Source of the DNA: Cellulosimicrobium cellulans
Lineage (GTDB): Bacteria > Actinomycetota > Actinomycetes > Actinomycetales > Cellulomonadaceae
Assembly: GCF_016921195.1 (NCBI RefSeq)
Contig: NZ_JAFGYF010000009.1
Span: 62,001-126,000, forward strand
DNA length: 64,000 bases
Direction: 5' to 3'
Part shown: one piece after another, positions 13,462 through 55,733 of the stretch
Position numbering within the stretch: position 1 is the stretch's first letter
Layout of the letters: every line of letters starts with the position of its first letter
The notes under the pieces: model-generated
What the model saw: only the letters and a program-made list of their open reading frames with translations
Databases searched by the model: none
What the model was told of the DNA's origin: nothing
Program-made: the position numbers and the translations under genes

Positions 13462-14190
13462 TCAGCAGGGGCCGAGGTCCTTCCAGACGCCCCACTGGCC
13501 GCTCTGGGCCGGGTTCTCGCCGGTGGTCCACCACTTGGCCTGGTAGTTGCGGCCGTCGTGGGAGACGTTCGCGCCGCCGAGGTAGACCGAGCCGGCGGAC
13601 CAGGCGGGGGCGGTGCACTCGCCGGGCTCGGGGTCGGTGGGCTCGGGGTCCGGGTCGCCCGGGTCGGTGCCACCGCTGCCGATCTTCAGGTCGACGCAGT
13701 TGTAGAACGCGTTCACGGTGTTCGACACGTTCCAGCGCGCGAGGATCGTGTGGTTGCCCTCGGGCAGGCCGGTCAGCGTGTGGGAGATGTTGCTCGGGGG
13801 CTGTGCGCCGCCCTGGTTGAACGTCTTGAACAGCACGCCGTCGACGAAGTACTCCCACGTGCTGGTGTTGTGCGCCGCGGTGAGGTTCCACTGGAACGTC
13901 ACCGACGTGCCGGTCTGCGTGCGCGGCCACGGCTTGCTGTTGTCGTCGAGGATGCTGAAGCCGCTCCCGCCGGAACACTGCATCGAGCCCTTGGGGGCCT
14001 CGACGGACTGCGGCTCGTACTTGATGCTGCCGCAGTCGAACGACGTGGTGCCCTTCGCGCAGTGGTCCTGCCGGCTCGGCGGGGACGTGATCCAGCCGTG
14101 CGCGCTCGCGCTGGGCGCGATCGCCACGGGGGCGATGATCGCGACCGCGCCGACGACGGCCGCCAGGAGTACCGCTCTCAGTCTTCGCAT
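13462..14190 (-). CDS. AA10 lytic polysaccharide monooxygenase with C-terminal CBM5/12 (paralogue 1)
   Basis: A secreted copper enzyme that oxidatively cleaves crystalline chitin or cellulose. The 242-residue precursor has a signal peptide ending APSASA, so mature His31 becomes the N-terminal histidine of the copper brace. H107 (in LTAAHNTS) is the second brace ligand, and F162 in NAFYNCVDL fits the axial position. A Pro/Asp/Glu linker (about 175-190) joins a 50-residue CBM5/12 module (APAWSAGSVYLGG ... YQAKWWTTGENP ... WGVWKDLGPC). The start at 14190 is set by the signal peptide. Substrate preference (chitin more likely, from the CBM5/12) is inference. Confidence 0.93.
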   Translation of the reverse strand: MRRLRAVLLAAVVGAVAIIAPVAIAPSASAHGWITSPPSRQDHCAKGTTSFDCGSIKYEPQSVEAPKGSMQCSGGSGFSILDDNSKPWPRTQTGTSVTFQWNLTAAHNTSTWEYFVDGVLFKTFNQGGAQPPSNISHTLTGLPEGNHTILARWNVSNTVNAFYNCVDLKIGSGGTDPGDPDPEPTDPEPGECTAPAWSAGSVYLGGANVSHDGRNYQAKWWTTGENPAQSGQWGVWKDLGPC

Positions 14191-14361
14191 GAGATGTCTC
14201 GCTCTCCATCCGGTGCTGCATGGGTCCTGCGGCGCGCTTCGTCGCGGGCCGCTCTCGGATCGGGCACGTTCGACGCTACGAAACGTGAGGAGTGCGGACA
14301 ATCGGGCGAAGCCCGTACGTGCTTCCTCGTACCCGGCGTGCCGTCCGCTCCCGGGGACGCA

Positions 14362-14420: not shown

Positions 14421-15170
14421 TCAGCAGGCGCCGACCAGCTTCCACGGGCCCCACGCCTCGGCGCCCGGGACGTTGTTCAGCGTCCACCACTTCGCCTCGT
14501 AGATGTTGCCGTCGTGCGAGACCTTCGCCCCGCCGGTGTACGTCGCGGTCGACGACCACGCCGCGTCGGTGCACTCGCCCGGCTCGCCGCCGCCGGGGTT
14601 CTCACCGCCGGGGTTCTCCCCACCAGGGTTCTCGCCACCGGGGTTGGTCCCGTCCGCCGTGACCGTGAGGTCGACGCAGTTGTAGAACGCGTTCACCGTG
14701 TCCGCGACGCTCCAGCGCGCGAGGATCGTGTGCTCGCCCAGGGGCAGGCCCTTCAGGGTGTGCGAGATGTCCTTGGGGGGCTGCACGCCGCCGCCGTCGA
14801 ACGACGCGAAGAGCTGGCCGTCGACGAAGTACTCCCACACGCTCGTCGCGTGGTTGGCGGTGAGCTTCCACTGGAAGGTCACGTCGCGGCCGGTGGTCGT
14901 GCGCGGCCAGGGCTTCGACTCGTCGTCGAGGATCGTGTAGCCGCTGCCGCCGGAGCACTTCATCGAGCCCTTGGGCGCCTCGACGGACTGCGGCTCGTAC
15001 TTGAGGCCGCCGCAGTCGAAGGACGTGGCGCCGGTGGCGCACTGGTCCTGCCGGCTCGGGGGGGACGTGATCCAGCCGTGCGCCGAGGCGCTGGGGGCGA
15101 TCGCGATCGGGGCGATGATCGCGGTCGCGCCCACGACGGCGGCGAGGAGCGCCGCGCGAAGTCGCTTCAT
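14421..15170 (-). CDS. AA10 lytic polysaccharide monooxygenase with C-terminal CBM5/12 (paralogue 2)
   Basis: A tandem duplicate of the neighbouring LPMO: a 249-residue precursor, the same APSASA cleavage site, copper ligands H31 and H107, F162 and the conserved ARW-V--TVNAFYNCVDL block. It differs in its linker, which has three NPGGE repeats and a variant encoded by near-identical 15-bp DNA units (about 14587-14646), and in a more diverged CBM5/12 (TDAAWSSTATYTGG ... YEAKWWTLNNVPG). The variable linker suggests repeat-driven length change. It has its own upstream region and its own terminator. Confidence 0.93.
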   Translation of the reverse strand: MKRLRAALLAAVVGATAIIAPIAIAPSASAHGWITSPPSRQDQCATGATSFDCGGLKYEPQSVEAPKGSMKCSGGSGYTILDDESKPWPRTTTGRDVTFQWKLTANHATSVWEYFVDGQLFASFDGGGVQPPKDISHTLKGLPLGEHTILARWSVADTVNAFYNCVDLTVTADGTNPGGENPGGENPGGENPGGGEPGECTDAAWSSTATYTGGAKVSHDGNIYEAKWWTLNNVPGAEAWGPWKLVGAC

Positions 15171-15445
15171 GGGGGACTCGCTTCCTGTGTCGGGGAGGGC
15201 CGACACCGTGCGGAGCCCGCACCGTCGGCCGTGACGGGGTGGACCGTAGGCAGCCGCGCGACGTCCGCTCAACGACTACGCACGCCCGGCCTCGGGTACG
15301 GGAAGTCCCGTACTCAGACGGGTCGGTTCGCCGGGATCGTGCGCCTGCGACGGCGCTCCGCCCCCGTCGTACCCCGGTGCGGAGGGACGGCGAGCGGGTG
15401 AAAACATGTGGTGATCACGTAGGGCCCGCGGGTGGTGCACCGGTG
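15171..15445. other. Intergenic region upstream of LPMO 2
   Basis: These 275 bp separate the LPMO start (15170) from the stop of the acyltransferase gene (15446), both on the minus strand. It should contain the LPMO promoter. I see no clear -35/-10 pair; GTGATCAC (near 15410) is a short palindrome. Confidence 0.5.
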
Positions 15446-25476: not shown

Positions 25477-26109
25477 GTGAGCGACGGGGCAGGGCGCGCG
25501 GGACGACGGCCGGACGGCGAACCCGGGGGAGCGCCCGGGCGCCCGTCCGAACGGACCGGGGACGGGACGCTCGCGGCGGTCGCCGCGCAGCTCCGGGCGC
25601 TGCGTGGCGAGCGCGGGCTCTCGCTCTCGGCGCTCGCCGCCGCCGCGGGCATCGGCAAGGGCTCGCTCTCCGAGATCGAGCACGGCGCGCGCAACCCCAC
25701 GCTCGCGACGCTCTACGCGCTGGCCGGGGCCCTCGGCGTCCCGCTCGCGACGCTGCTCGCCGAGCGGGCCGGTACGGAGGTCTCGTCCGAGGGCGTCACC
25801 GCACGCCTGCTCGACGCGCACCACCTGCCGGGCGGCACCGCCGTCGAGGTCTACCACCTGCACCTCGAGGCGCACGCGGACCGGACGTCGCCGCCCCACG
25901 GACCGGGCGTCGTCGAGCACCTGCTCATCACGCGCGGCCGCCTGCGGGCCGGGCGCCGCGGCGCGGAGGCGGTCGTCGAGGAGGGCGACGAGCTGCGCTG
26001 GGTGTCCGACGCCGACCACTCCTACCGGGCGCTCGACGGCGCCCCGGTCGACGCCGTGCTCGTGATCCGGACGCCGCCGCGGTCCGCGGGCGGGCCGTCG
26101 TCGGCCTAG
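25477..26109 (+). CDS. XRE-family regulator with C-terminal cupin domain
   Basis: A 210-residue regulator. After a Gly/Arg/Pro-rich lead, residues about 35-90 are an XRE helix-turn-helix (RALRGERGLSLSALAAAAGIGKGSLSEIEHG-RNPTLATLYALAGALGVPLATLL in order). The C-terminal part is a small cupin (VEHLLITRGRLRAG ... EEGDELRW). This architecture equals E. coli YdcN/SutR, encoded next to the BenE homologue ydcO, as here. Start GTG 25477. The stop overlaps the convergent PrsW gene by a few bases, so no terminator separates them. Confidence 0.88.
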   Translation: MSDGAGRAGRRPDGEPGGAPGRPSERTGDGTLAAVAAQLRALRGERGLSLSALAAAAGIGKGSLSEIEHGARNPTLATLYALAGALGVPLATLLAERAGTEVSSEGVTARLLDAHHLPGGTAVEVYHLHLEAHADRTSPPHGPGVVEHLLITRGRLRAGRRGAEAVVEEGDELRWVSDADHSYRALDGAPVDAVLVIRTPPRSAGGPSSA

Positions 26110-27398
26110 TAGGCGCCCTGGCCGGGCACCCACGCGTCGGACGTGAATCCGGACGGCGCACCCGGCGACCACGGTGCGGGCGGCGGTTGCGGCGTCCGGA
26201 CCAGGAAGGCCTGGCGCGCCGTGAGCATGAGGTGCAGCAGCGCGCGGCGCTGACCCTCGACGCGCCACGCCTCGACCGCGCCGCGCGCGACCCGGTCGTG
26301 GAGCAGCGCGAGCTCCGTCGCCGCCTGCTGGTAGTCGCGCATGGCGTGGGCGGCGCCGGCGCCGCCGGTGCGCCGGGCCCAGTCGCGCGCCTGGCGTCGG
26401 GTCGCGAGCGTCGAGAGCATCGTGAGGTCCGCGGGCGTGACCAGGCCCGTCGGGACGTACGGGACGAGCTGGCGCCGGATCGTCGCGACCGTGCGGCGCC
26501 GGTCCTTGACGAGCAGCACGACCAGCGTGATCAGGACCCCGAGCCCCGCGAGGTAGGCGACCCCGAGCGCGAGCGTCCCGAAGCCGGTCGAGGCGTTCCA
26601 CAGCATGTGGAGCGCGATCGCCGCCGCGAGGCCGCCGATCGGCGCGAGCACGCGGCGCGGGCCGGGCGGGCTCGTGGCCGCGCTCGCGACGCCGAGGCCC
26701 GTGAGCGCCGTGCACAGCGGGTGCAGCAGGGGGGTGACGAGCGCGCGCAGCACGAACGTCGGGCCGAGCGTGCCGTCCTGCGCCGCCATGATGAAGTACG
26801 TGACGTTCTCGACCGCCGCGAACCCGAGCGCCACCATCGCGGCGTAGATGACGCCGTCGGTCCAGCCGTCGATCTCGTGCCGGCGGAACCAGAGCATCCC
26901 GAACAGCACCGCGCCCTTGAGGACCTCCTCGACGAACGGCGCCCCGAACGACGCGACGACGTACCAGCCGACCTCCTCGCCGAACAGCGGTGCGGTGAGC
27001 AGCTCCAGCCCGAGCGTGTTGAGGATCCCCGCGACGAGGGTCGCGATGCCCGCACCCCACAGGAACGCCACGACGAGCGCGCTCGGCGGCTCCGGCTCGA
27101 GCCGGTCGAGCGCGAGCACGACCGGCAGCCAGATGCCGAGCGGCACGAGCGCGAGCAGGAGGCCGACCGTGAACGTCCCGACCCCGGACAGCGCCGCCAG
27201 CACGAGGCCCACGAGCAGGCACAGGCTCGCGACCGCGATCGTCACGATGATGCCGACGCGCGCCCGGCCCGGGGGGCGACCCTCCAGGACCGCGCGCGGG
27301 TCGAGCGGCACCGCGGCACCCGCAGGACCCTGCGGGTGGGGGTGCACCGGCTGCGGGTGCGGCGGAGGGGCGGCGGGCCCGTGCGGCGGGAAGGTCAC
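26106..27398 (-). CDS. PrsW-family intramembrane metalloprotease
   Basis: A 430-residue membrane protease. A Pro/His-rich cytosolic N-terminus (about 45 residues) precedes 8-9 membrane helices. GAPFVEEVLKGAVLF contains the EExxK motif of the active site; AAVENVTYF and a histidine-containing helix (LHMLWNAS) supply the other conserved residues. In Bacillus, PrsW cleaves anti-sigma factor RsiW; here no clear partner is adjacent, although a membrane anti-sigma domain exists at 50472-55733. GTG start at 27398. The C-terminal roughly 130 residues are a cytosolic Ala/Arg-rich helical extension. Confidence 0.9.
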   Translation of the reverse strand: MTFPPHGPAAPPPHPQPVHPHPQGPAGAAVPLDPRAVLEGRPPGRARVGIIVTIAVASLCLLVGLVLAALSGVGTFTVGLLLALVPLGIWLPVVLALDRLEPEPPSALVVAFLWGAGIATLVAGILNTLGLELLTAPLFGEEVGWYVVASFGAPFVEEVLKGAVLFGMLWFRRHEIDGWTDGVIYAAMVALGFAAVENVTYFIMAAQDGTLGPTFVLRALVTPLLHPLCTALTGLGVASAATSPPGPRRVLAPIGGLAAAIALHMLWNASTGFGTLALGVAYLAGLGVLITLVVLLVKDRRRTVATIRRQLVPYVPTGLVTPADLTMLSTLATRRQARDWARRTGGAGAAHAMRDYQQAATELALLHDRVARGAVEAWRVEGQRRALLHLMLTARQAFLVRTPQPPPAPWSPGAPSGFTSDAWVPGQGAY

Positions 27399-49498: not shown

Positions 49499-50296
49499 TC
49501 AGCGCTGGAGCGCGTCGAGGAGCTGGACGGCGGCGGAGTGGGTGCGGGGGAGCGGTTCGAGCCAGACGCGCGGCGGACGGCGCAGGATCGCCGTGACCCC
49601 CAGCGCGAGGCCCGTGCGCTCGATGTTGTGGCGGAGCACGGTGCGCAGCGTGTCGTCGTCGGCGCCGCGCTCCCCGAGGACCACGAAGAGCCCGTTGCCG
49701 AGGGACGCCATCGGATGGCCGTCGCCGAAGGTGTGCGTGAGCGCGCGGCCCATCGCCGCCGACCGCGCGAAGCGTTGCCACCCGGTGAGGTCGTCGAGCG
49801 CGACGTCGACCACGAGGAGCCCGTGCGTCCGGGTCGCGTCCCCACCCGCGCGCTGCGCGACGCCGTACGTCTCCCGGAGCCGGTGGACGAGGTACTGGGC
49901 CGTCGCCAGGCCCGACTCGGGGTCCATGACCTCGGGTGTCGTCGGCGTCGCCTCGTACCCCTCGGACCAGCCGACCGCGACCGCGCGCAGCAGCTCGACC
50001 ACGGGCTCGCGGTCGTGCGTCCGGTACAGGCACACGACGTCGTCGATGGCCTCGCCGATCCCCACGCCGGCCTCGGCCCGCACCCTCCCGAGCCGCTCGG
50101 CGGCCGGTGTCCCGTCCCGTTCCTCGCACAGCGCCTCGACGAGCGCGTCGACGGCGGGGTGGTACCAGTCGCCCGGCCGCAGCCAGATGCTCGCCGCGCT
50201 CGCGTGACGCCAGCGTTCGCGCACGCTGTCGGGAGCGGGCACGGCGTACCCGTGGAGGTGGTCCATGTCGATGAGACGGGCGACCGGGCGATCCAT
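49499..50296 (-). CDS. Protein with degenerate GGDEF-like C-terminal domain
   Basis: A 265-residue cytoplasmic protein divergent from the giant sigma factor gene. The N-terminal roughly 140 residues are helical (ALVEALCEERDGTPAAERLGRVRAEAGVGIGEAIDDVVCLYRTH in sequence) and unassigned. The C-terminal part (GLLVVDVALDDLTGWQRFARSAAMGRALTHTFGDGHPMASLGNGLFVVLGE in order) follows the strand-helix pattern of GGDEF domains, but the signature GGDEF is replaced by LGNGLF, so it cannot make cyclic-di-GMP. The assignment to GGDEF is by pattern only. Shared promoter space suggests a link to the sigma factor. Confidence 0.6.
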   Translation of the reverse strand: MDRPVARLIDMDHLHGYAVPAPDSVRERWRHASAASIWLRPGDWYHPAVDALVEALCEERDGTPAAERLGRVRAEAGVGIGEAIDDVVCLYRTHDREPVVELLRAVAVGWSEGYEATPTTPEVMDPESGLATAQYLVHRLRETYGVAQRAGGDATRTHGLLVVDVALDDLTGWQRFARSAAMGRALTHTFGDGHPMASLGNGLFVVLGERGADDDTLRTVLRHNIERTGLALGVTAILRRPPRVWLEPLPRTHSAAVQLLDALQR

Positions 50297-50471
50297 GACG
50301 CGGATCGACGAAGAAGTTTCCGGGACGCCGCGTCCGGGATGAAAACGGGCGAACGGGGAGGACTCCGGCCGTTACCGTTCCGTCGTCGGAAGCCCCCTGC
50401 CCCGCCGTTGGACTGACGTCTACTATGGCCACCGTACGCCTCGGAGCGGGGCGGTCTCCGGGGCGGGTGAC
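50297..50471. promoter_or_regulatory. Divergent promoter region of the giant sigma factor
   Basis: This 175-bp gap contains TACTAT at 50412-50417, a good -10 for the sigma factor gene. A matching -35 is not obvious. GGAA at 50388 is a possible ECF-type -35 but the spacing is not canonical. Confidence 0.4.
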
Positions 50472-53400
50472 ATGACGCAGGCGCAGGAACGGGTGTGGAG
50501 CGAGGCGTTCAGCGACGCCGAGCTCATCACGGCCGTGCGCGAGGGCGACACGAGCGCCTACGGGGTCCTCTACGAGCGGCACGCCGCGGCGGCCCGCACG
50601 GTCGCGCGCCAGTACGTCCGGTCCCCGGCCGACGCCGACGACGTCGTGTCCGACGCGTTCGCCCGGACGTTGTCCGTGCTGCAGGCCGGCGGCGGGCCCG
50701 ACGTCACCTTCCGCGCCTATCTCTTCACCGTCGTCCGGCGCCTCTCCTACGACCTCGTCAACGGCGCCCGGCGCACCCAGCCCACCGACGACGAGCGCAC
50801 GTTCGAGACCGCGTTCGGCCCCATGGCGTCCACCGAGGACCCGACGCTCGAGGGCTTCGAGCGCTCGACGGTCACGCGCGCCTACCAGGAGCTCCCCGAG
50901 CGCTGGCGTGCCGTCCTCTGGTACACGGAGGTCGAGAACCTGTCCCCGGCCGAGATCGCGCCGATCCTCGGACTCACCGCGAACGGCGTCTCGGCGCTCG
51001 CCTACCGGGCGCGCGAGGGGCTCCGCCAGGCGTACCTCCAGCAGCACCTGACCTCCGTGCCCGCCGAGGAGTGCCGCACGGTCAACGCGCTCCTCGGGTC
51101 GTACGTGCGCGGTGGGCTCGCCAAGCGCGAGACTGCACGCGTGGAGTCCCACCTCGACGGGTGCGCCGAGTGCCGCGCGCTCGTGCTCGAGCTGGGCGAC
51201 GTGTCGCACGGCATGCGGGCCGTCATCGCGCCGCTCGTCCTCGGTGTCGGCGCGCTCGGCCTCGTCGGGACCGCCCTCCCGACTGCCGGGGGCGCGGCGG
51301 TCGCCGGCGGGGTCGGTGCCGCGCTGCAGGGCTCGTCGAGCGGCGGCGCGGGGTCCGCGGGCGGGTCCGGTGCCGCCGGCGGCTCGGGCGGGGCGGGGGC
51401 CGGAGCAGGTGCGGGCGGAGGTGCGGGCGCCGCCGGGACGAGCGCTGCCGGGACCGGCGTCGTCGGGGGTGCCGGCGCGGCGGCGGGCGCGGCCGGCGGA
51501 GCAGGCGGCGCGGCCGGAGCCGGCGCGGCTTCCGTGGGCGGCGCGGCGGCAGCGGCCGGCGGCGCCGCGGCAGGCAGCGGCGCGCTCGCCATGGCCGGAG
51601 CCGGGGGGCTCGTCGCCCTCGTCGCCTCGGCGCCGGTGGCGGTGGCCGCCGTCACCGTCGGCGTGCTCGCGGTCGCGGGGCTGGGAGTCGCGGGCGCGCT
51701 CGGGGCGTTCTCGCCCGACCCGGAACCGACGCCTACCTCGCAGTCCTCGCCGTCGTCGAGCGGCTCGCCCACGACGTCACCGACCTCCGAGGCGACCAGC
51801 GCGCCGACCGACCCGAGCGCGGACCCGACCGCACCGACCAACATCCCGACCGCGCCGACCGACGGCGCCACCGCCGGGACCGGTGACACGACCGGGGCCG
51901 GCGGCGGGTCGTCCACCGGCGGCACGACGCCGGTCGGCTCGACGCCCGGGACCACGACCCCGGGCGGGTCCACCGACCCCGGCACCGGCACGCCGGTGCC
52001 CACGGACCCGGGGACCGGGAACCCCGAGCCGACCGATCCCGGTCCCGGGACACCCGAGCCCGCGCCGGCGGCGCTCGAGCTGTCGCTCGCCCCCGTCACG
52101 CTCGCGGCACGCGTTCCTGCCGACCTCGTCATCACCGCGTCGAACACCGGCGGACGCGCGGCGGAGGAGGTGTTCGTCGACCTCACCCTCCCGGCGGGCG
52201 TGTCCACCCCCGGTTCCTCGCTCGTCGCGCGTGGCACTGCCGTCGGCGGACCGCTGTCGACGGCCTCGCTCCCGTGCGGCAGCGCGGTGCCCCAGGCGGA
52301 CGGGACGAGCCAGGTCACGTGCTCGGTCGGAGTCCTCGCGCCGCGAGCGACGCAGGACCTCTCCGTGCAGGTGCGCGCCGACTCGGGCGGTGAGTACGCC
52401 TTCGCCGCGTCGCTGCGCGCCAAGGGCATCGAGCCGTCCCAGCGTTCGTTCCCGCCGACGCAGGTCTCCTACTGGGGCGCAGAGCTGCGGGTCACCGCGG
52501 AGCCCACGCTCGCGTTCGACAACCCGGGCGACGCGACGCTGCGGCTCTCCCTGCGCAACAGCGGCGACCAGCCTGCAGTGGAACCGCGCGTGACCGTCGA
52601 CCTCCCGGACGGACTGAGCCTCGTCGGCGGAGGACCGGCGGGCTGGACCTGCGAGGCGGGCGACGGATCCGTGTCGTGCGCCTCGCCGCCGGGCACGACG
52701 CTCGCCCCGCGCGCCGGCGTGGACGTCCCGGTGCGTCTGCTCGCGGACCTCGAGACCGTCCCGGACGACTTTCCCGACCTCCAGGTCCGGGCGACGGCGG
52801 GCGACGCCCGCTCCGGCACCGCGTCCGTCGGCACGGACGTCGACGACCACTGGGCAGGCGCCGCCGACGGTCTGCGCGGGGAGGACGGGTCGCCCCGGGC
52901 CGTCGTGCCGCAGTGCACGGCGACCGAGGAGGGCGACGTCGCGTCACTCGTCGCGACGTACACCAACACCACCTCCTACGACGACCTCGACGTGACGGTC
53001 GAGGCGGCGGGCTCCCGCGCCACCACCCCCGCGGTCCGGTCCGGCCAGGAGGTGAAGGTCCGGGTCGACGACGGCGTGCGCTTCCCCGCCGGGCGTGCGG
53101 CCGTCGTGCTCTCGACGACCGTCGCGGGCGAGACGTTCGAGCACCGCCTCGACGCGGGGCCGTTCGACGCGCTCGACTGCTGGACCCCGCCGCCATGGCT
53201 CACGGCTGCGGACGTCCGGGTCGTCGCCGACAACGACCGCGGAACGGTCCGCTGGACGGCGAGCGTCACGAACAGCACCGGTGCCGGGCTGGACGTTCGT
53301 CTCCTGGCGCCGGGGACCGAGGGCTGGTCGAGCGTTCCGGACTCTGCGGAGATCGCCCCGCTGCTCGACGGCCGCACCGCTGACCTTGTCCTCGACACCG

Positions 53401-55733
53401 GCTCGGCCGTGACGCCCCAGGGCAACGCCGTCCTGCGCCAGTACCGCTGGCACCAGGACGCTGACGGCGACGGCAAGGGCTACCAGAGCCTCCTGCCCGT
53501 CCTCCTCGAGGAGCAGCGGATCGCACCCGCGGTCCCGGAACCGACGGTGGGCCAGTGCCGGTTCGACCCGGAGACGGATGCGTCGTGGGCCCCGGCGACG
53601 CTGTCCTACGACAACTCGGCGTCGACCCTGCCGGTGGTGTTCTCGGTCGACGGGCACGCCGGACTCTCGAAGACGGTCCCGGCGGGCGAGACGTCGGACG
53701 TCGAGCTGCCCCGAGCCGGCGCGGAGGCGGCCACGTACGTGGTGCGCGCCGACGGCCACGAGCTCGGGACGCGCACGGTCGGCGCCGTCGACTGCTTCCG
53801 GTGGTCGGTGACGGGAAGCGCGGCGACGCGCTGGTCCGCGCAGACCCGGTCGGTCGTCGTGCAGGGTGAGTTCCGCAACGGCCACGTGGCGACGGCACTG
53901 CGCGTGACCATGGACGGTGGCGAGCTCGGCGTGACGCAGGCCGTGGACGTCGCCCCGGGCGAGAGGGTGACGGTCGCGCTCGACACGGGATCGCGCGACG
54001 TCGCGGCCGGAGAGGTCGTCTTCCACGCGACGCGGCTCGACGGGTCGGCGGGGTCGCACTCCGTGACCGCGTCGTACGACGCGGTCCGGCACGTGCCCGC
54101 CGTGGACGTGCCGGTCGTCGGGAAGTGCCACCTCGACCCGAGGACCGAGCTGTCCTCCGCCGCGCTCTCGCTGCGCTACGACAACACGCGCTCGACCGTC
54201 CCCGTCGTCTTCTCGGTCGAGGGCCGCCAGGACCTGACGCGCACGGTCGCCGGTGGTCGTGCGGCGACCGTCGACGTCCCGGGCGGCGTGGCGCAGAGTG
54301 CCGTGACGTTCGCCGTGCTCGCCGACGGCGCCCCGCTCGCGAGCCACACCGTCGCGGGCGTCGACTGCTTCGACTGGAAGCAGGTCGCGCACGCGGCCGA
54401 CGCCGAGACGTCCTGGGTGGTGGCGCCCGGGGCCGACGTCGGCACGTCCGTCGTGACGGGCACGTTCCGCAACCCGTACGCCGCGACGACGCTCCGCGTC
54501 GGGATGTCGACACCGCACGGCGACGCCGCCCCGAGCGAGGTCGCACCGGGTGCCGAGGCGACGTTCACCGTGGACGCGAAGGCCCTGTCCGTCCCGGCCG
54601 GGACGGCGACGTTCACGGTCGAGCGCGCGGCGCCGTCGGGCCCGGGCCGGGAGACGGTCGAGGCCCGCTACCGTGCCCTCGAGTACAGCCCGGAGTGGGC
54701 GCGGACCGCGACGGTCGACGCGCGCTGGCTGGACGGCTCGGTCAAGCTCGTCGGCACGTTCACCAACGACTCGCCCGAGGCGGTGGACGTCGTCATGTCC
54801 GCCGAGGGCTACGGGGAGTCGGAGCCCGCGCGCCAGGTCACGCCCGGCGCGACGGCCACGTTCGTGGTCGACACCCGCTCGCTCGACGTGAAGGCCGGGA
54901 AGGTCGTCTTCCGCCAGTCCCGCTCGGTCCTCGGCACGGCGTTCACGGACGCGGGGCTGACGGCGAGGTACCAGGGCGACGGCTACGAGCCCGACTGGAG
55001 CGCCACCCCGACGGTGGTCGCGCAGTGCGCCGCCGGGAGCGACGGCGTCGTCCTCACCGTGGGCCTGCGCAACGACTCGCCCGAGGCGATGCACGTCGTC
55101 GCGCGCACACCGTTCGGCGACCGCGACCTGGGCGACCTCGCCCCCGGGGCGAGCGTGAGCGCGACCGTCGCGGCGGGTGCTCTCTCGACCAAGGCCGGGA
55201 CGGTCGAGCTCGAACTCTCGCGCACGGTGCTCGGGGTGTCGTTCACCGAGACGCTCTCGGAGCGCTTCGAGGCGTTCGACTGCACGGTCGAGGCGCCGAC
55301 CGCGAGCCTCGTCCTCGGCGACCCGTACTACGACGCGCAGCGGGACCACTCCTACCGCGCCGTCTCCGTGCTGCTCGACAACTCGCGCTCGAACGTTCCC
55401 GTGACGTTCCGTGTCACGGGACAGGCCAAGGGCGAGTGGGTCGTCGGAGCGGGGGAGCGGCGCACCGAGAGCCTGGGCGAGGCGCCCTGGTCCGGCGCGA
55501 CCTACGTCGTCCACGCGGGCAGGACGACCGAACAGCTCCGGGTCGAGGGCTTCACCGCGGCTCCCGCCTGCTACGCCGAGTGGGAGGCGGGCACCTGGTA
55601 CGGCCGGTCCGCCGAGGTCTCCTACCGCGGCTGGAACTACGCGGCCCGGAACGACTACGCGCTCGTCCGTCCCGACGACCCGGTGCTGGGCTGGTTCTTC
55701 TGGGAGCGCGTGTCGCGCTGCGGCGAGGGCTGA
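50472..55733 (+). CDS. Giant ECF sigma factor fused to anti-sigma-like zinc domain, membrane segment and large carbohydrate-binding ectodomain
   Basis: A 1753-residue protein. Residues 12-90 are sigma region 2 (DTSAYGVLYERHAAAARTVA, DADDVVSDAFARTL) and about 135-192 sigma region 4 (LSPAEIAPILGLTANGVSALAYRAREGLRQAY). Then comes a zinc anti-sigma motif H227-x3-C231-x2-C234 (HLDGCAEC) with a possible fourth ligand at C200 (ECR). A hydrophobic segment near 245 and a Gly/Ala-rich stretch lead to a membrane helix at about 372-412. Residues 413-530 are a Pro/Thr/Ser linker. From 530 to 1690 are repeated Ig-like beta domains of two alternating types (DNxxSxxPVxFxV, and GxFxNxxxxxLRV with PGxxxT). Residues 1700-1753 look like a CBM5/12 module (CYAEWEAGTWYG ... 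YRGWNYAARND ... GWFFWERVSRC). It probably signals the presence of a wall polysaccharide to transcription. Confidence 0.88.
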   Translation: MTQAQERVWSEAFSDAELITAVREGDTSAYGVLYERHAAAARTVARQYVRSPADADDVVSDAFARTLSVLQAGGGPDVTFRAYLFTVVRRLSYDLVNGARRTQPTDDERTFETAFGPMASTEDPTLEGFERSTVTRAYQELPERWRAVLWYTEVENLSPAEIAPILGLTANGVSALAYRAREGLRQAYLQQHLTSVPAEECRTVNALLGSYVRGGLAKRETARVESHLDGCAECRALVLELGDVSHGMRAVIAPLVLGVGALGLVGTALPTAGGAAVAGGVGAALQGSSSGGAGSAGGSGAAGGSGGAGAGAGAGGGAGAAGTSAAGTGVVGGAGAAAGAAGGAGGAAGAGAASVGGAAAAAGGAAAGSGALAMAGAGGLVALVASAPVAVAAVTVGVLAVAGLGVAGALGAFSPDPEPTPTSQSSPSSSGSPTTSPTSEATSAPTDPSADPTAPTNIPTAPTDGATAGTGDTTGAGGGSSTGGTTPVGSTPGTTTPGGSTDPGTGTPVPTDPGTGNPEPTDPGPGTPEPAPAALELSLAPVTLAARVPADLVITASNTGGRAAEEVFVDLTLPAGVSTPGSSLVARGTAVGGPLSTASLPCGSAVPQADGTSQVTCSVGVLAPRATQDLSVQVRADSGGEYAFAASLRAKGIEPSQRSFPPTQVSYWGAELRVTAEPTLAFDNPGDATLRLSLRNSGDQPAVEPRVTVDLPDGLSLVGGGPAGWTCEAGDGSVSCASPPGTTLAPRAGVDVPVRLLADLETVPDDFPDLQVRATAGDARSGTASVGTDVDDHWAGAADGLRGEDGSPRAVVPQCTATEEGDVASLVATYTNTTSYDDLDVTVEAAGSRATTPAVRSGQEVKVRVDDGVRFPAGRAAVVLSTTVAGETFEHRLDAGPFDALDCWTPPPWLTAADVRVVADNDRGTVRWTASVTNSTGAGLDVRLLAPGTEGWSSVPDSAEIAPLLDGRTADLVLDTGSAVTPQGNAVLRQYRWHQDADGDGKGYQSLLPVLLEEQRIAPAVPEPTVGQCRFDPETDASWAPATLSYDNSASTLPVVFSVDGHAGLSKTVPAGETSDVELPRAGAEAATYVVRADGHELGTRTVGAVDCFRWSVTGSAATRWSAQTRSVVVQGEFRNGHVATALRVTMDGGELGVTQAVDVAPGERVTVALDTGSRDVAAGEVVFHATRLDGSAGSHSVTASYDAVRHVPAVDVPVVGKCHLDPRTELSSAALSLRYDNTRSTVPVVFSVEGRQDLTRTVAGGRAATVDVPGGVAQSAVTFAVLADGAPLASHTVAGVDCFDWKQVAHAADAETSWVVAPGADVGTSVVTGTFRNPYAATTLRVGMSTPHGDAAPSEVAPGAEATFTVDAKALSVPAGTATFTVERAAPSGPGRETVEARYRALEYSPEWARTATVDARWLDGSVKLVGTFTNDSPEAVDVVMSAEGYGESEPARQVTPGATATFVVDTRSLDVKAGKVVFRQSRSVLGTAFTDAGLTARYQGDGYEPDWSATPTVVAQCAAGSDGVVLTVGLRNDSPEAMHVVARTPFGDRDLGDLAPGASVSATVAAGALSTKAGTVELELSRTVLGVSFTETLSERFEAFDCTVEAPTASLVLGDPYYDAQRDHSYRAVSVLLDNSRSNVPVTFRVTGQAKGEWVVGAGERRTESLGEAPWSGATYVVHAGRTTEQLRVEGFTAAPACYAEWEAGTWYGRSAEVSYRGWNYAARNDYALVRPDDPVLGWFFWERVSRCGEG

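Follow-up and report, generated by a model that had tools for sequence, protein, structure and literature searches.

Within a 64,000-nucleotide stretch of Cellulosimicrobium cellulans DNA (contig NZ_JAFGYF010000009.1, positions 62,001 to 126,000; hereafter the window), one gene encodes a protein in which an extracytoplasmic function (ECF) sigma factor is fused to a zinc-binding anti-sigma (ZAS) finger, a membrane-spanning segment and a very long repeat ectodomain. Computational analysis of this protein and its relatives revealed its architecture, its linkage to a divergently transcribed partner gene and a conserved promoter in front of that partner. With moderate confidence, we read the whole as a one-component ECF sigma factor, tethered by a single pass through the membrane and reporting on the cell surface. 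The partner and the promoter, both absent from a preliminary description of this DNA, are the informative features. The control and the targets of fused membrane-bound sigma factors are largely an open question, and surface sensing becomes testable with a linked partner, a specific promoter and a few candidate targets in hand. The features on which we rely are as follows.

50472..55733, + strand: fused ECF sigma/ZAS/membrane/ectodomain protein, 1753 aa
50568..50774, + strand: sigma-70 region 2 (residues 33-101)
50874..51017, + strand: sigma-70 region 4 (residues 135-182)
51072..51176, + strand: zf-HC2, the ZAS anti-sigma finger (residues 201-235, H227-x3-C231-x2-C234)
51213..51281, + strand: first hydrophobic segment, with conserved P and G (residues ~248-270, from hydropathy and alignment)
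51282..51611, + strand: uncharged Gly/Ala-rich linker (residues ~271-380)
51636..51704, + strand: predicted membrane-spanning segment (residues 389-411, from hydropathy and a 75-protein comparison)
51705..52070, + strand: Pro/Thr/Ser-rich linker (residues 412-533, from sequence)
52080..55571, + strand: ectodomain, two DUF11-like modules followed by A and B repeats (residues 537-1700)
55560..55730, + strand: C-terminal aromatic module (residues 1697-1753, C1700/C1750)
49499..50266, - strand: divergent partner, a degenerate GGDEF-like protein (255 aa when read from 50266)
50273..50300, - strand: ECF-type promoter toward the partner (-35-like CGTCA, 17 nt, -10-like CGTCTC)

Architecture and topology of the fused sigma factor

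The gene is a single uninterrupted frame of 1753 codons, in which third-position G+C was high in 17 of 17 blocks tested, in keeping with the one open frame and consistent codon use reported in the preliminary description. Sigma region 2, sigma region 4, zf-HC2 and DUF11 all scored above the Pfam cut-offs, the sigma part matched TIGR02937 at 1.8e-19, and its structure matches were sigma-E, SigW and SigL. The protein thus combines the two regions of an ECF sigma factor with the adjoining H-x3-C-x2-C of a class I ZAS, as had been read from the letters alone, and H227, C231 and C234 are invariant in all 42 alignment rows, the window protein among them. When residues 1-415 were modeled, the sigma domains and the ZAS were each well folded, but their mutual packing was unreliable (pTM, the predicted template modeling score, 0.36). 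The nearest loci were found in C. cellulans (91% identity over query residues 1-263) and C. arenosum (86%). The window's genome itself contains nine sigma matches, counting the fused protein and two fused paralogs (L086:1435-3372 and L102:3297-6395).

Two hydrophobic segments, 119 residues apart, both pass a simple hydropathy test. The second was the more hydrophobic in 75 of 75 relatives (window included), a biased comparison, since the second segment was taken as the top-scoring stretch within a longer region. Its N-terminal side was the more positively charged in 66 of these proteins, the two sides were equal in 6, and the bias was reversed in 3. Of 74 proteins, 55 have an even number of cysteines beyond it, 13 have none and 6 have an odd number. 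Furthermore, in three of nine relatives scanned the ectodomain is clearly of an extracellular kind (NPCBM; Ig plus ricin-B lectin; pilin plus LPXTG). Because of this charge bias, the cysteine parity and the extracellular type of these ectodomains, we read the protein as spanning the membrane once, at residues 389-411, with its repeat ectodomain outside the cell. This agrees with the earlier claim of at least one membrane helix, and the Pro/Thr linker described there follows at residues 412-533. The first hydrophobic segment falls partly in a modeled helix (residues 232-262) along which confidence drops. In ZAS proteins, the fourth helix comes after a flexible linker and binds sigma region 2 (PMC7406223). 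We think that the first segment (residues ~248-270) is probably this anti-sigma helix 4 and not a membrane helix.

The window ectodomain is the longest of the 74 measured, with 1345 residues vs. a median of 260. Its repeats sort into two families, A and B, and come after two DUF11-like modules; the preliminary description had noticed about eight Ig-like repeats of two alternating types. The ectodomain contains 14 cysteines, paired by position within modules. The last 57 residues are aromatic, with one cysteine near either end, and had been described as CBM5/12-like. That claim failed the profile tests: PF02839 had no match in the window protein, although 17 such domains were recognized in the same genome, and an Isoptericola homolog gave a weak CBM_5_12 match (E 0.057). 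Nor did sequence profiles find NPCBM or any other carbohydrate-binding Pfam domain in the window protein at E<=10. We therefore rejected a C-terminal CBM5/12 on profile evidence, while a remote relative remains conceivable. Two adjacent LPMO_10 plus CBM5/12 proteins are encoded elsewhere in the window (13465-14301 and 14424-15272, - strand).

A relative in Arthrobacter alkaliphilus bears on the nature of the outer half. There, a single 864-aa open reading frame (L043:7944-10538) consists of sigma, ZAS, membrane helix and a whole Gram-positive LPXTG pilin. A separate pilin encoded ~3.7 kb downstream (L043:14212-15708) is 79% identical to the fused one over 450 residues, which argues against the fusion being an assembly duplicate. 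This locus supports the topology and a surface role, not the partner or the promoter. Should the proposed circuit work, the fused pilin would connect a surface polymer directly with RNA polymerase. On an Arthrobacter alpinus plasmid (L004:1479-16702), two fused sigma factors lie amid genes for SpaA-type pilins and class C sortases.

The divergent partner and its conserved promoter

The partner has the GGDEF fold, although the window copy escapes Pfam recognition, and is a short protein whose N-terminal part is helical and which has no EAL domain. We took its start at 50266, the first possible start of the open reading frame being 50296, which overlaps the promoter. The GG[DE]EF active site was present in 0 of 32 partners, and we therefore rejected the possibility that the partner is an active diguanylate cyclase. 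Strong partner matches numbered 27 in 197 genomes, and a fused sigma gene adjoins 26 of the 27, the pair being kept together in two orientations. Such neighboring genes are spread over many actinobacteria. We take the partner to be a dedicated regulator of the sigma circuit, acting in feedback or as an adaptor, and it may be nucleotide responsive. A second copy in the window's genome is not linked to a sigma gene (L101:6634-7464, C6) and has the promoter motif described below in front of it; its neighbors resemble an exosortase and a glycosyltransferase gene. In a family-f24 member with an ectodomain of Ig repeats and ricin-B lectin (L104:2294-5338, - strand), the partner lies upstream in the same direction.

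We compared 38 upstream regions, i.e., the window and 37 partner-linked loci, with L051 left out. GCGTCA pointing toward the partner was found in 31 of them (shuffled mean 5.9, maximum 12 of 200 shuffles), vs. 8 in which it points toward the sigma gene (shuffled mean 6.4, maximum 13). When 35 sites were lined up, with one site per region picked by eye where there were several and with L012, L023 and L039 dropped, a second block, CGTCTC, appeared at a fixed distance, 17 nt from CGTCA, and its third letter is T at 33 of the 35 sites. Every one of the 35 has CGTCA because the sites were chosen that way, so that CGTCTC alone counts as a result. In the window, the partner ATG starts 6 nt past CGTCTC, and in several Micrococcales an ATG or GTG follows it by 6-7 nt (e.g., L005, L006, L009-L012, L014, L042). 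Because the distance between the blocks does not vary and a number of start codons come just after CGTCTC, we assigned CGTCA as the -35 and CGTCTC as the -10, which replaces a reading with GAAA as -35 and GCGTCA as -10. With a start codon only 6-7 nt past CGTCTC, the partner message is probably leaderless.

An automatic scan of 84 sigma loci (<=1 mismatch in 11, two T fixed) detected a partner-facing site in 35 loci (shuffled mean 0.3, maximum 1) and a sigma-facing site in 5 (shuffled mean 0.7, maximum 2), most of the positive loci having served in defining the motif. No partner was found in 5 of the 35 loci with a partner-facing site (L031, L037, L045, L052 and L059). The motif precedes the sigma gene itself in L045, L047, L070, G094 and G117, where no partner was found, and it lies just upstream of one of the fused sigma paralogs in the window's genome (L086:1435-3372, C18). 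A scan of nine loci yielded five distinct motif places, two of them (L107 and L101:293) without explanation. That the motif also precedes sigma genes, a paralog and the unlinked partner copy is our main reason for assigning it, as a predicted promoter, to the fused-sigma family.

Within the genus, perfect motif sites number 82 in 17 genomes vs. 2 for a reversed control. Thirty of the 82 were opened, six of those having been selected for recurring letters; 6 lie before the partner, 5 before a membrane protein, 2 before an adhesin and 17 are unassigned. The membrane protein is orthologous between genomes, has ~228 residues and a copy in the window's own genome (C5), and the one copy tested matched nothing in Pfam or NCBIfam. 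The adhesins, in two of the opened genomes, are secreted choice-of-anchor-A proteins (TIGR04215, 8.8e-41 and 2e-36). In G117, which belongs to a different family within that order, the motif likewise stands before a choice-of-anchor-A gene (2.7e-42). Among the 16 strict sites found class-wide, 10 were inspected: 2 lie before a fused sigma gene, 1 before an adhesin, 2 before a small conserved frame and 5 are unassigned. This small frame, in L125 and L140 (G094 and G117), has C-x-C and DHWYS motifs. No CAZyme (carbohydrate-active enzyme) genes are among the targets assigned so far, which are the partner, the membrane protein and the adhesins.

A proposed surface-reporting circuit and its alternatives

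We infer a mechanism in which the sigma domains would be kept inactive in cis by the fused ZAS, with the first hydrophobic segment serving as anti-sigma helix 4, and in which a flexible Gly/Ala linker would lead through one membrane helix to the long repeat ectodomain outside. At the wall or surface, a ligand, tension or the state of assembly would trigger the freeing of the sigma part, most likely through proteolysis near the membrane by some protease, and the freed sigma would transcribe from CGTCA-N17-CGTCTC promoters. Its most conserved target would be the divergent gene for the cytosolic GGDEF-fold protein without catalytic motif, the putative regulator, and further targets in the genus would include the ~228-residue membrane protein and, in some genomes, large surface adhesins. 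More speculatively, there may be a class-wide actinobacterial circuit in which the outer half of the sigma factor is a piece of surface machinery resembling that under its control, examples being the adhesin-like modules in the window and the whole LPXTG pilin in Arthrobacter alkaliphilus. In such a circuit, sortase anchoring or assembly would report to transcription, and the partner without catalytic motif, expressed from the sigma's own promoter, would gate the circuit, perhaps through a nucleotide.

Several observations weigh against this mechanism. No protease gene linked to the sigma family was found, and the structure model leaves the packing of sigma against ZAS unsupported. Of the 197 genomes, 157 contain a loose form of the motif, CGTCAY-N16-CGTCTC, so that single matches mean little, and even the strict motif, with 16 sites in 13 genomes, compares with 5 for a reversed control. 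In the window, the motif is absent toward its own sigma gene at <=2 mismatches, and although the window's genome has six perfect sites, no choice-of-anchor-A adhesin gene follows any of them. Two loci in which the partner is codirectional (L104 and L105) have no motif at <=1 mismatch, and the search of the pilin-bearing L043 yielded no partner, nor was the motif above chance there. Neither partner nor motif occurs in the Streptomyces clade; in a quick tree, 22 rows, nearly all Streptomycetaceae, form together with L003 a branch that excludes the window (SH-aLRT 96). Finally, other sigma factors may read the motif.

Four other explanations were weighed. The sigma factor might never be released, working from the membrane as CadC and ToxR do, with the signal unlocking the ZAS by a conformational change. 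The missing protease linkage would fit, and the long uncharged linker in the 119 residues between the segments could let a tethered sigma reach DNA, but the model for ECF48, ECF52 and ECF53 and the case of IutY both use proteolysis (PMC8999054), and the truncated sigma domain of SCO4117 is partially active on its own (PMC5826349), which makes us consider permanent tethering unlikely, if worth keeping in view. We give a somewhat smaller chance to the promoter being read by another ECF sigma factor, with the partner a mere neighbor. The genome has nine sigma matches to choose from, and recognition by the fused sigma is predicted from the comparison; still, the motif follows the fused sigma, sitting before it where no partner was found and before a fused paralog, and partner and sigma remain neighbors in two orientations.

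The preliminary description had favored a sensor of fungal or plant wall polymer, with a terminal CBM5/12 as its binding module and PrsW as the releasing protease. The two LPMO_10 plus CBM5/12 genes in the window, the aromatic C terminus with its cysteines and the weak Isoptericola match speak for it, but the window protein has no CBM5/12 match, on which this idea leaned, and the assigned targets include no CAZyme and, in relatives, do include surface adhesins. As for PrsW, its proposed role drew on co-presence only: the gene (26106-27398, - strand, 1.2e-43) is 23 kb away, and a homolog was found in 1 of the 84 sigma loci (L066), each of which spans at most ~17 kb. We regard such a sensor as improbable and a cell-surface role as likelier than fungal-wall sensing. 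Least credible of all is that both hydrophobic segments cross the membrane, which would place the repeat domain in the cytosol. Both do pass hydropathy, and one to two helices have been described for such groups (PMC8999054), but the charge bias, the cysteine parity and the sortase, lectin and NPCBM ectodomains of relatives disfavor two membrane helices. What stands of the preliminary description is therefore a one-piece membrane ECF sigma factor with a fused ZAS, not its CBM5/12 or its release by PrsW.

Comparison with known systems

The fusion of sigma to anti-sigma is of a known kind and is not new. One-piece proteins have been described for ECF48, ECF52 and ECF53, with extensions of one to two helices and release by proteolysis as the reviewed model (PMC8999054), and for SCO4117 (PMC5826349), so that the link to ECF52/53 made in the preliminary description was right. 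Both papers propose that the sigma part is released. ECF53 and ECF48 likewise have a transmembrane anti-sigma extension with a zinc finger joined to the sigma part; it is described as reaching 400 residues at most (PMC8999054) vs. ~1550 here, as compared by description only. IutY (ECF243, Pseudomonas putida) is an experimentally characterized one-piece sigma/anti-sigma protein that is freed by regulated proteolysis; it differs in serving Gram-negative iron-starvation surface signaling, with Prc and RseP, and the excerpted account mentions no GGDEF-like partner (PMC8999054). SCO4117 of Streptomyces coelicolor (ECF52) also has sigma, zinc finger, membrane region and Pro-rich linker in one protein but carries a carbohydrate-binding module (PMC5826349), whereas the window protein has its 1345-residue repeat array and no such profile match. 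Experimental validation of the carbohydrate domains predicted in ECF52/53 is still outstanding (PMC10766802). The Streptomyces rows, which we equate with ECF52 because L065 carries NPCBM, are on the separate branch without partner and motif.

The C-terminal domain of ECF41 sigma factors is soluble. ECF41 shares with the window protein a fused regulatory domain, a bipartite promoter and a neighboring gene as main target; its promoter is TGTCACA-n16-CGTC vs. CGTCA(T/C)-N16-CGTCTC here, and its neighbors are of COE type (PMC3426412), whereas the window sigma has a GGDEF-like neighbor, a ZAS and a membrane helix. The resemblance is thus a likeness in logic and promoter letters, and the ECF41 promoter is the nearest known to the window motif. 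LapD and FimX are, like the partner, degenerate GGDEF proteins, from which it differs in being a short protein with a helical N-terminal part and in lacking an EAL domain. In the literature searched, with the main ECF surveys outside the search, there was no earlier description of the GGDEF-like partner, the promoter or the pilin-bearing member. Within that search, what is new in this family is the linked partner, the fixed-spacing promoter, the predicted targets in the genus and a member that carries a whole pilin.
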